In this document: positions 1,761-4,392 of the stretch, in pieces
How the letters are laid out: each line of letters begins with the position of its first letter
Position numbering within the stretch: position 1 is the first letter of the stretch
Assembly (NCBI RefSeq): GCF_031082345.1
Contig: NZ_JAVHLH010000050.1
Span: 1,047-13,571 of the forward strand
Direction of reading: 5' to 3'
DNA length: 12,525 nucleotides
Source of the DNA: Brevundimonas sp.
GTDB lineage: Bacteria > Pseudomonadota > Alphaproteobacteria > Caulobacterales > Caulobacteraceae
Translations under genes and position numbers: made by a program
The notes under the pieces: model-generated
What the model was told of the DNA's origin: nothing
Seen by the model: only the letters and a program-made list of their open reading frames with translations
The model's database searches: none

Positions 1761-1812
1761 CCGTCGCCGAACCGTCATCGGACCGTCGCACCGCCCGTCA
1801 CAAACCTGTGGT
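1761..1812 (+). promoter_or_regulatory. Tandem PhoB-box-like array upstream of pstS
   Basis: Five heptamers recur at almost fixed spacing: CCGTCGC at 1761, CCGTCAT at 1772, CCGTCGC at 1783, CCGTCAC at 1795 and CTGTGGT at 1806, with steps of 11, 11, 12 and 11 nt. The classical Pho box is two 7-nt repeats of the CTGTCAT/C type separated by 4 AT-rich bases. The pair at 1795-1812, with spacer AAAC, fits best. The array ends 41 nt before the pstS start codon, as expected for an activator site. I see no convincing -10 just downstream. Activation by PhoB under phosphate limitation is inferred from this architecture and from the gene products. Confidence 0.7.
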
Positions 1813-1853
1813 CCAAGCAGCCTCGACCTCAACCGTTGTCGGAGCCAAGACCC

Positions 1854-2918
1854 ATGACCCGCACCCTGTTCGCCGCCACCTCGGCGATCGCCCTGCTCGC
1901 CCTCGGGGCCTGCGGCGACAACCAGACCGGAGGCGCCCAGGGCGCCCGCGCCGGCATCTGGGCCGCCGGCTCCTCGACCGTCTTCCCCTTCACCACCCGG
2001 GTGGCCGAGAATTTCGCCCGCACCTCGGGCGGCGCCGCGCCGCGCGTTGAATCGCTGGGCACCGGCGGCGGCATCCAGGCCTTCTGCCAGGGCACGGGCC
2101 CGACCACCCCGGACATCGCCAACGCCTCGCGCCGGATGAAGAAGTCCGAGTTCGAGATGTGCCAGGCCAACGGCGTCACCGACATCGTCGAGCTGAAGAT
2201 CGGCTACGACGGCCTCGTCATCGCCACCGCCCTGGACGCGCCCGACTACGGCTTCGAGGGCGACGACCTCTACCTCGCCCTGGCCAAGGAAGTGCCGGGA
2301 CCGAACGGGTCGTTCATCGCCAATCCGAACACCACCTGGAGCCAGGTCAATCCGGGTCTGCCCGCCAGCCGCATCATGGTCTATGGCCCGCCGCCCACTT
2401 CCGGCACCCGCGACTCCTGGCTCGAACTGGCCATGGCCCCGTCGGCCGAGACCATCCCGCAGCTCGCGGCCCTCGCGGAAAGCGACGAGGACCGCTTCGA
2501 GACCCTCGCCCACACCCTTCGCGAGGACGGCGCCTGGATCGACTCGGGCGAGAACGACAACGCCATCGTCCAGACCCTGACGCGCACCCCCGGCTCGACC
2601 GGCGTCTTCGGCTACTCCTTCCTCGAGCAGAACGCCGACTCGGTGAAGGCGCACAGCGTCAACGGCGTCATGCCGACCCCCGAAACCATCGCCTCGGGCG
2701 CCTATCCGGTCTCCCGCTCGATGTTCATCTACGTCAAGAAGGCCCACGTCGGCGTCACCCCGGGGCTGAAGGAGTTCGTCCTGGAGTATATGTCGGACGC
2801 CGCCGCCGGACGCGGCGGCTACCTCCAGGACCGCGGTCTGGTGCCGCTGCCCGCCGAGGAACTGGCCGCCCAACGCGCCCTGGCCACGGCCATGACCTCG
2901 ATGGCCAGCCCCGAGTAA
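1854..2918 (+). CDS. pstS: PstS-type phosphate-binding lipoprotein of the high-affinity phosphate ABC transporter
   Basis: A 354-residue periplasmic solute-binding protein that captures phosphate for the PstCAB importer. The N-terminus is a lipoprotein signal: MTR, a hydrophobic stretch, then lipobox LGAC with the modified cysteine at residue 20. Family motifs are AAGSSTV at 37-43 (the first phosphate-binding loop), the SRRMKKSE segment at 92-99, and PTSGTRDSW at 181-189, whose Ser/Thr/Arg normally contact phosphate. ATG 1854 was chosen over the open frame back to 1704 because it has GGAG nine nt upstream, begins the signal peptide, and leaves the Pho-like array non-coding. No pstC, pstA, pstB or phoU is nearby, so this is an orphan pstS; as I recall, pstS is also unlinked from pstCAB in Caulobacter. 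A related PstS-like protein such as SphX cannot be excluded. Confidence 0.9.
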   Translation: MTRTLFAATSAIALLALGACGDNQTGGAQGARAGIWAAGSSTVFPFTTRVAENFARTSGGAAPRVESLGTGGGIQAFCQGTGPTTPDIANASRRMKKSEFEMCQANGVTDIVELKIGYDGLVIATALDAPDYGFEGDDLYLALAKEVPGPNGSFIANPNTTWSQVNPGLPASRIMVYGPPPTSGTRDSWLELAMAPSAETIPQLAALAESDEDRFETLAHTLREDGAWIDSGENDNAIVQTLTRTPGSTGVFGYSFLEQNADSVKAHSVNGVMPTPETIASGAYPVSRSMFIYVKKAHVGVTPGLKEFVLEYMSDAAAGRGGYLQDRGLVPLPAEELAAQRALATAMTSMASPE

Positions 2919-2947
2919 ACCGGCCGGATCCTTTCGGAGCAGACCGG

Positions 2948-2977
2948 ACGCCGCGGGCCGCAAGGCCCGCGGCGTTT
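2948..2977 (+). terminator. Rho-independent terminator after pstS
   Basis: A perfect 12-bp stem (2948-2959 with 2964-2975) closes on the tetraloop GCAA, a GNRA loop, and runs into a short T run (TTTC). It begins 29 nt after the pstS stop. It separates pstS from the porin gene, so the two phosphate genes are independent units, consistent with each having its own Pho-like array. Confidence 0.8.
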
Positions 2978-3002
2978 CGCTGTCCGCGCGCCTCCGTCCG
3001 GG

Positions 3003-3108
3003 CCGTCACAAATCTGGATGGGAAGCGTCACGGTTCTGCATCCCGACGGTCGGAATAGCGTCACGGCAATCTCACCGTTCCGTCGCCGGACCGCAGCGAA
3101 ATCGTCGC
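3003..3108 (+). promoter_or_regulatory. Extended PhoB-box-like array upstream of the phosphate porin
   Basis: Every GTC triplet in this stretch sits on one 11-nt lattice, at 3005, 3027, 3049, 3060, 3082 and 3104. The surrounding heptamers are CCGTCAC (3003), GCGTCAC (3025), CGGTCGG (3047), GCGTCAC (3058), CCGTCGC (3080) and TCGTCGC (3102). Intermediate positions hold weaker half-sites such as CTGGATG (3014) and ATCTCAC (3069). The first pair has spacer AAAT and the last pair (3091-3108) has spacer GAAA, both in the style of Pho boxes. Eleven-nt spacing puts the repeats on one DNA face, as for tandem PhoB dimers. Strongest matches lie 22 nt apart within each half of the array. Confidence 0.68.
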
Positions 3109-3116
3109 GCGCAAAA

Positions 3117-3122
3117 GATAAT
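3117..3122 (+). promoter_or_regulatory. Candidate -10 element of the porin promoter
   Basis: GATAAT matches the TATAAT consensus at 5 of 6 positions. It begins 9 nt after the last Pho-like heptamer (ending 3108), close to the box-to-minus-10 spacing of PhoB-activated promoters, where the box replaces the -35. It would place transcription start near 3129, giving a leader of about 45 nt. Confidence 0.5.
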
Positions 3123-3174
3123 CCGGGGCCTGACAGACCACATCCGGTCCGCGGGCAACCGAAGGATTCTCCCA

Positions 3175-4392
3175 GTGCGACAACACACCCTGCTGGCGGG
3201 CGCCGCGCTCGCCGCCGCTCTCTCGCTCACCGCCGGTTCGGCCCAGGCCCAGACCGCCCAACCGACCAGCAGCGCCTGGAAGGGCGCGCCCGAATACAGC
3301 TGGGGCGACTTCACCATCAAACTCCGCGGCCGGGTGTACGCCGACTACGTCGATCAGGATGTCGACCGGGCCGTCGGCGCCGACTTCAGCGCCTCGGAGG
3401 ACCGTTTCCGCACCGCACGGATCGGCGTCCAGGGGAGCTGGGGCGAGCAGTGGTCGTTCGTCGCCGAGGGCAATTTCACCAACGGCGAGTCGAACTGGGA
3501 AGACCTGCTGATCGAATATGCGCCGAGCGACAACACCGCCATCACCCTCGGCAACTTCAAGAGCCTGTCGCTCGAGAACCTGACATCGTCGCGATACACG
3601 ACCTTCATGGAACGCGGCCCGTTCAACGACCTGATCGACGGCGGCCGGGTCATGACCCTGGCGGCGCGCACGGGCGGCGACAACTGGTCGGTCGCGGGCG
3701 GCGTCCACGGCGATTCGGTCAATGACGGCGCCCCGGGCGACGGCGACGAACAGCGCGGCGTCTTCGTCCGCGCCCACTTCGCCCCGATCGTCACCGACGA
3801 GACGAAGGTGCACCTCGGCGTCTGGGCCCGCGACCGCGACCGGCGCGACGACACCGCCTTCCGCTATCGCGTGCGCAACAACACCAATTTCGGCGCCCGC
3901 TACACCGACGCCGGCTCCTCGCCGCTCGGCGCCGGGGACGGTGATGTCGCCATCGGCCTCGAGGCCGCCGGCGTCTGGCGCAGCTTCTCGGTCCAGGGCG
4001 AATGGGCGACCGTCGACGCCGACCTGACCGGCGGCGGTTCGGCCCGGGCGGACGCCTGGTACGTCTTCGCCTCCTTCTTCCCGACCGGCGAACAGCGCAA
4101 ATACAAGCCCGCCGACGGCAAGTTCGACCGGGTCAGCGTCCGCGAGCCGGTGACCCGCGGCGGCATGGGCGCCGTCGAGCTGGCGGTCCGCTACGACGCC
4201 GCCGACCTGACCGAGTTCGCCGGCGTGGCCACCGCCGGCGAATATTCCGCCGTGACGCTGGGGGCCACCTGGTACCCGTGGTCCCACGTCCGCTTCATGG
4301 CCAACTACACCGACGCGAAGAACGACGCCCAGGTCGCCGCCTCGGACGTCGACGTCCAGACCCTGCAGTTCCGGGCGCAGTTCGACTTCTAG
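3175..4392 (+). CDS. OprO/OprP-family phosphate-selective outer-membrane porin
   Basis: A 405-residue beta-barrel porin expected to let phosphate or polyphosphate cross the outer membrane. GTG 3175 is preceded by AGGA at 3163-3166 (8-nt spacing) and opens a clean Sec signal peptide ending AQA|QT after residue 25. The mature chain shows alternating aromatic/polar strands. The family-typical run RTARIGVQGSWGEQW is followed by LGNFKSLSLENLTSSRYTTF and MERGPF, which resemble OprO/OprP sequences. The last residue is Phe (FRAQFDF), the usual signal for outer-membrane assembly. Placement behind a Pho-like array and next to pstS supports a phosphate role. Ligand selectivity (orthophosphate, pyrophosphate or polyphosphate) cannot be told from sequence. 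The gene ends 18 nt before a composite palindromic repeat that probably terminates it. Confidence 0.9.
   Translation: MRQHTLLAGAALAAALSLTAGSAQAQTAQPTSSAWKGAPEYSWGDFTIKLRGRVYADYVDQDVDRAVGADFSASEDRFRTARIGVQGSWGEQWSFVAEGNFTNGESNWEDLLIEYAPSDNTAITLGNFKSLSLENLTSSRYTTFMERGPFNDLIDGGRVMTLAARTGGDNWSVAGGVHGDSVNDGAPGDGDEQRGVFVRAHFAPIVTDETKVHLGVWARDRDRRDDTAFRYRVRNNTNFGARYTDAGSSPLGAGDGDVAIGLEAAGVWRSFSVQGEWATVDADLTGGGSARADAWYVFASFFPTGEQRKYKPADGKFDRVSVREPVTRGGMGAVELAVRYDAADLTEFAGVATAGEYSAVTLGATWYPWSHVRFMANYTDAKNDAQVAASDVDVQTLQFRAQFDF

Follow-up and report, generated by a model that had tools for sequence, protein, structure and literature searches.

A long tandem array of putative PhoB half-sites ahead of a phosphate porin gene in Brevundimonas

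The pho boxes of E. coli replace the −35 element, and Pho promoters of this bacterium carry one to three of them. Each box is built of two 11-nt repeats with CTGTCAT as the most conserved motif, and the ugp promoter is described as having “multiple PHO boxes” (PMC4415409); the boxes are located 10 bp upstream of the −10 element (PMC1906773). The repeats of Streptomyces PhoP follow the consensus GTTCACC (PMC4415409), and the complex (type III) PhoP operator of pitH2 has a 64-nt footprint with four core and two ancillary units, which are filled as PhoP rises (PMC7866108). In cyanobacteria, SphR operators consist of three or more 8-bp boxes in tandem, separated by 3-bp linkers (PMC1906773). Tandem 11-nt operators with unequal units are already known.

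The array described here belongs to Brevundimonas sp. and is located between pstS and a porin gene. The window, i.e. the whole stretch of DNA that was analysed, comprises 12,525 nt of contig NZ_JAVHLH010000050.1. Its relevant features are as follows:

1761..1816, plus strand: Pho half-sites of pstS, with 1761, 1772 and 1783 at 11-nt steps, a 12-nt step to 1795, then 1806
1854..2918, plus strand: pstS, periplasmic phosphate-binding protein (PF12849 PBP_like_2, 149.5 bits)
3003..3035, plus strand: distal module of the array (slots 1–3), half-sites CCGTCACAAAT (3003, the strongest) and GCGTCACGGTT (3025), 22 nt apart
3036..3057, plus strand: joint (slots 4–5), poorly conserved, with CGGTCGG at 3047
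3058..3112, plus strand: proximal module (slots 6–10), half-sites at 3058, 3080 and 3102, 22 nt apart; its other slots are a weak CTCAC slot at 3069 and an A-rich-ended slot at 3091
3117..3122, plus strand: −10-like hexamer GATAAT, 13 nt from the proximal GTC (start to start)
3175..4392, plus strand: gene of an OprO/OprP-type phosphate porin with a GTG start (PF07396 Porin_O_P, 159.9 bits)
Beyond the porin, plus strand: putA (proline dehydrogenase and aldehyde dehydrogenase domains), past a stretch with a long minus-strand frame

As in the PhoB pho boxes of E. coli (phoA, pstS, ugpB), the repeats are direct, 11 nt long, built on a GTCA core, uniformly oriented and placed before a −10 element. 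In contrast to these boxes, the array covers five 22-nt box lengths, its proximal half-sites are poor and its best half-site is the distal one. With pitH2 of Streptomyces it shares an arrangement of 11-nt repeats of unequal strength, but the consensus is another one, six units stand against up to ten slots here, and the phylum is different. The SphR operators also proceed in 11-nt steps, but with the consensus CTTAACCT, and the work describing them (PMC1906773) deals with two or three units. The porin arrays of other Caulobacteraceae stand ahead of an orthologous gene and have the same half-site, −10 offset and 22-nt rhythm, which a step of 11 nt often interrupts; they differ in being shorter than ten slots and in that the porin mostly lies ahead of pstS. 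As a switch the array would be of a familiar type, only unusually long; what sets it apart is its length and the conserved distal anchor combined with weak proximal sites. No description of this promoter was found among the literature matches listed (titles and beginnings of abstracts, subscription papers being mostly outside the scope), and the main text of PMC11208175 mentions neither a porin nor a binding motif.

Read as 11-nt slots from 3003, the array is CCGTCACAAAT CTGGATGGGAA GCGTCACGGTT (slots 1–3), CTGCATCCCGA CGGTCGGAATA (slots 4–5) and GCGTCACGGCA ATCTCACCGTT CCGTCGCCGGA CCGCAGCGAAA TCGTCGCGCGC (slots 6–10), followed by AAAA and GATAAT. The GTC triplets at 3005, 3027, 3049, 3060, 3082 and 3104, the only ones in 3001–3110, have the same orientation and are equal modulo 11, with steps of 22, 22, 11, 22 and 22 nt; good half-sites thereby alternate with poor slots in a 22-nt rhythm that slips once, at slots 5–6. 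The single lattice of six GTC claimed in the original prediction is thus borne out with the spacing described, and the GATAAT that it placed at 3117 is present. Codon periodicity is ruled out as a source of the lattice, since 11 cannot be divided by 3.

The half-sites were scored with a PhoB matrix derived from Brevundimonas pst promoters, 30 of pstS and 30 of pstC, porin sequences being excluded; training was seeded with a PhoB consensus and used 87 half-sites, a few of which are probably not real sites. Five slots of the array reach at least 2.5 bits, namely 3003 and 3025 in the distal module (13.1 and 3.8 bits) and 3058, 3080 and 3102 in the proximal one (2.6, 5.2 and 2.7 bits). The slots at 3047 (1.4 bits) and 3091 (0.5 bits) are weaker, and those at 3014, 3036 and 3069 score below −5. 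Five or six half-sites can be considered well supported. The resemblance of every heptamer to CYGTCAY, as originally proposed, holds for 3003, the only heptamer of the array to fit CNGTCAY strictly, and fails in this strict form at the other sites. Likewise, the room for ten units stands as a register and not as ten occupied sites, slot 4 being invariant in only one of its 11 columns across five species. All five intergenic plus-strand half-sites of at least 2.5 bits lie on the lattice in one orientation, and the three minus-strand matches (3066, 3049, 3033) each overlap plus-strand cores, which leaves the opposed PhoB modules also suggested at the outset unsupported.

As can be judged from the matrix scan that had been proposed as a check, the array is well above background: starting at 3003 it ranks first in the window with 29.4 bits, followed by the pstS promoter with 22.3 bits (itself a training sequence). 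This score was reached in none of 5000 dinucleotide shuffles of 2919–3174 (mean 5.9, maximum 21.0), and none of 5000 such shuffles placed six GTC of a 110-nt span on a single 11-nt lattice. Any other period from 7 to 21 gives at most 18.4 bits, and no second site where a 108-nt span holds five or more GTC in a single 11-nt phase exists on either strand of the whole window. In the 2.9-Mb genome the pattern GTCR-N18-GTCR-N18-GTCR has four matches, two of which are the halves of this array, and its reversed control has one. At a cut of 35 bits, under which the window's own array falls, 19 distinct places were found among 1.13 million positions of the collected DNA (both strands, overlapping loci included). 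By their coordinates, 13 stand ahead of porin genes and represent 10 different loci; the other 6 stand ahead of pstC and belong to the training set of the matrix.

Relatives of the porin at E 0.001 occur in 26 of 131 Brevundimonas genomes, and a close orthologue is found in five including the present one (79–100% identity; other matches do not exceed 43%). According to the original prediction, an 11-nt spacing lost among close relatives would have counted against the array. The spacing is kept: the ten-slot register is free of indels in all five orthologues. The distal GTC of the 3003 and 3025 half-sites and those at 3058, 3080 and 3102 are present in 5/5, the GTC of slot 5 (3047) in four of the five species and the CTCA of slot 7 in all. 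The last two bases of the poor slots 2 and 9 are AA in every orthologue, directly before the next GTC. Slot positions 3–5 are invariant in 21 of 30 columns, compared with 32 of the 80 remaining columns of the array (p 0.006 by Fisher test; five species). By slot, the fewest invariant columns belong to slot 4 (1/11), and slots 5 and 9 have 4/11 each. A scored chain, in which no scored slot falls below 0 bits and a single empty slot is permitted, spans the ten slots in two of the five and breaks at slots 4–5 in the other three.

A pattern made of slots 1, 3, 6, 8 and 10 retrieves the porin promoter in all five orthologue genomes among the 131 Brevundimonas genomes searched, together with seven further matches, five of them near-identical and two singletons; its reversed control has no match in the same 131 genomes. 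The pattern's matches in five genomes (L140 and the near-identical L142, L146, L147 and L149) represent one shared stretch. Inspected by eye, the L140 match lies ahead of a TrbC-like conjugation gene, and there the stretch has its own 11-nt tandem units starting with AAGTCG, AAGTCGTCAGC AAGTCGCATAC AAGTCGTTGAA, with a consensus different from that of PhoB.

Outside Brevundimonas, 35 loci were compared: seven, and 28 new ones among the 30 best-matching loci of a larger set (some match in 151 of 299 genomes). L112, L114 and L117 duplicate L011, L008 and L010 and were dropped from the −10 offset, seed-free and strength-order counts. L012, L122, L123, L125, L126 and L129, which have no clear array, were also dropped from the latter two counts, so that 26 of 32 were kept. 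For the scored-chain count a tail-based filter left 33 others, with L117 retained. L013–L016, whose contigs equal those of L002–L005 in length, were treated as the same records and not counted. The relatives are not independent of each other, and counts across them overstate the evidence.

The scored chain extends over 4–7 slots in 27 of these 33 orthologues and over fewer in 6, and in the 32 non-redundant ones GTC occupies slot indices 0–7 from the promoter and almost never a farther one. In Brevundimonas GTC is found in 24 of 45 on-lattice slots vs 4 of 450 off-lattice positions, and in the other orthologues in 77 of 192 vs 28 of 1920, with the phase picked by best score. The 22-nt steps are the only ones in 11 of 26 other porin promoters, and 15 mix 11- and 22-nt steps; the change of phase in the middle of the array, to which the original prediction had attached a special meaning, is consequently no peculiarity of it. 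The poor slots in other genera show a preference for C or G (position 1), C (2), T (4), G (6), C (7) and A (10–11), and may be decayed half-sites rather than spacer. The distal 33 nt of the present array resemble the distal end of the 7-slot arrays in L006, L108, L124 and L127 (23–25 of 33 identical), where they stand at slot index 6 vs index 9 here; the other 28 loci give 15–22 of 33, and the motif itself creates similarity. Our guess is that the extra length came from a 7-slot array grown by three slots (33 nt). Such growth would explain both the length and the slip of the rhythm, since an odd number of slots shifts it; rhythm shifts are common in relatives, however, and this history is not needed to explain the slip.

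The repeat distance was also examined by a seed-free 3-mer test. Of the 30 pstC promoters, 29 repeat GTC at 11 nt, where other distances average 5.2. In the non-Brevundimonas porin promoters it recurs at 22 nt in all 26 of those kept after removal of the six without a clear array, and at 11 nt in 15 of the 26; other distances have a mean of 4.8. Many pstS promoters have a single strong half-site, and for this group the same test gave no 11-nt repeat of GTC.

The distance from the array to the −10 element is fixed. A TA of the −10 lies exactly 15 nt after the proximal GTC in 5/5 Brevundimonas and in 26 of 32 other orthologues (a count that includes the six loci without a clear array and in which the anchor of L122 was shifted one slot by hand); each other offset from 8 to 24 accounts for at most one sequence. 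In pstS promoters TA is found at offset 17 in 16 of 27, so that the porin −10 sits 2 nt nearer the array; the window's own pstS promoter has CCAA at this position and no TA. A sigma-70 scan found no −35/−10 pair, and with little power, for it found none in shuffles either.

Taken together, these features very probably define a Pho promoter without −35 element, in which a tandem PhoB operator stands ahead of the porin. The 11-nt half-sites are direct repeats of one orientation and agree with CTGTCAT or with the pst sites of the same genus (distal 13.1 bits, other GTC slots 1.4–5.2 bits), the boxes occupy the −35 place at a fixed distance from the −10, and the gene downstream is one of phosphate acquisition (Porin_O_P with pstS adjacent). 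The prediction of a PhoB-type array ahead of a phosphate porin has thereby gained support from the pst-trained matrix, from conservation in the genus and, in shorter form, in the family, from the −10 offset and from a PhoB with a near-identical recognition region.

The predicted strengths are graded along the array, which may therein resemble a Streptomyces-type complex PhoP operator, whose core and ancillary repeats of graded strength are filled in order. The most distal half-site is the strongest in 5/5 Brevundimonas (mean 14.1 bits vs 2.5 for the proximal one) and in 14 of 26 other porin promoters (7.3 expected), failing to be so in 12; by the matrix, distal beats proximal in 19 of these 26. 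The proximal half-site is the strongest in 0 of 31 promoters. It is weak and not always the weakest, for 3047 and 3058 score below 3102 here. A simple count of matches to CTGTCAT gives 5.6 for distal vs 3.4 for proximal half-sites in Brevundimonas (distal better in 5/5) and 5.31 vs 4.65 in the 26 others (distal ahead in 16, level in 5 and behind in 5). The window's own pstS promoter has its 15.0-bit half-site, at 1795, in one of the two positions closest to the gene, though training inflates this score.

We infer PhoB binding, phosphate control and the mechanism of the array from its sequence as follows. The array would be the operator of a PhoB-activated, −35-less phosphate porin promoter. 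Phosphorylated PhoB would be arranged head-to-tail on the 11-nt half-sites, with 22 bp per dimer and all protomers along the same side of the helix, and the one bound at 3102 would keep sigma positioned at the GATAAT −10. Since the best half-site is the farthest one and the proximal ones are poor, it is possible, at somewhat less than even confidence, that PhoB~P nucleates at distal 3003 and fills the array cooperatively toward the promoter. Distal filling suggests a late and steep response: the porin would need more PhoB~P than pstS or pstC and would be switched on later and more steeply. Carried further, an anchor ~112 nt upstream of the −10 would seed a PhoB “zipper” of up to ten protomers, propagating through poor half-sites before it reaches the promoter. 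Array length and the anchor-to-promoter gradient of strength would then set a high, steep phosphate threshold, tuned in Brevundimonas by the addition of about three helical turns; we regard this elaborate version as speculative and on the whole improbable.

The array might instead be two separate PhoB operators that merely share a helical phase. The proximal one (3058–3112) would drive the porin alone, and the distal one (3003–3035) would be auxiliary or spare, e.g. a reservoir of PhoB or a block to read-through from pstS. The interruption of the scored chain at slots 4–5 in three of five species is taken as evidence for two modules, and the conservation minimum at slot 4 (one invariant column vs four in slots 5 and 9) points the same way. 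Against it, the 55-nt register from 3003 to 3058 is indel-free in all five species, and the half-sites of other genera run in register to the promoter, though 15/26 mix 11- and 22-nt steps. On balance we consider two operators rather unlikely.

The identity of the regulator deserves a separate consideration. OmpR-family relatives other than PhoB also use such repeats, and of the 46 matches that the PhoB model TIGR02154 has in the genome all but one stay below the cut-off, so that a different member of the family with 11-nt direct-repeat sites might bind the array. That the half-site is shared with the pstC and pstS promoters, that the target gene is of the same kind with pstS adjacent, and that the PhoB recognition region is conserved make this very improbable. 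Finally, the lattice could be a chance product of a GC-rich spacer, where single half-sites are common (13.2 per kb of at least 2.5 bits, both strands); with no shuffle in 5000 matching it, the register kept in all five close orthologues and a shorter form in other genera, the probability of this is negligible.

If the gradient model is true, the porin promoters constitute a natural series of PhoB operators, mostly with 4–7 slots in relatives vs 10 here, at the same gene and −10 offset, and with this series the threshold and steepness of a two-component response could be related directly to how many tandem half-sites there are and in which order they stand. The work also provides a PhoB half-site matrix usable for Brevundimonas and places the porin in the predicted Pho regulon.

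PhoB is encoded in the genome (TIGR02154, 353.8 bits vs the cut-off of 296.2) on a contig that also carries PstC matches. Its recognition region, VYVEaRTVDVHvgRLRKAL, is nearly identical to VYVEDRTVDVHIRRLRKAL of E. coli PhoB (1gxp). The phoB gene is reported to be apparently essential in B. subvibrioides (PMC5590869). The genome's own pstC promoter is absent from the comparison, as the match has only 583 nt of contig upstream of it.

Relatives of pstS are present in 60 of 61 Brevundimonas genomes searched. It precedes the porin in the window and in 4/4 Brevundimonas relatives. Of 12 other loci examined, nine have pstS behind the porin on the same strand and one has it on the opposite strand, and in the DNA covered for the remaining two it was not found; the order of the genes is therefore swapped, pstS coming first in Brevundimonas and the porin first in those nine of 12 other Caulobacteraceae loci. 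A perfect GC-rich hairpin, GCCGCGGGCC-GCAA-GGCCCGCGGC, occupies 2950–2973 after pstS and shows few changes in L002–L005 (by eye). It has too few T, and the terminator scan found no strict intrinsic terminator after pstS. No RNA element within the window matched Rfam at gathering scores.

The five pstS half-sites score 8.6, 8.7, 4.9, 15.0 and 7.3 bits in order from 1761 to 1806; these values are inflated relative to those of the porin, as the matrix was trained on pst sites including pstS. The 12-nt step to the strong 1795 site is visible in the nearest relative L075 as well. The genome has three places with such an 11-nt triple, this promoter being one of them, and a single match to the reversed control. 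A further triple of GTC half-sites in 11-nt steps is found at ~1501 of L152 (G000 C210:5357-5382), between a ribonucleotide reductase-like ORF and a divergent PAP2-like ORF (by eye); this triple may be chance because the reversed control pattern also matched once. Another triple of GTC half-sites at 11-nt steps, at ~1286 of L151 (G000 C74:5179-5204, minus strand), stands directly ahead of a TonB-dependent receptor-like ORF (by eye), which is a candidate for a further Pho target.
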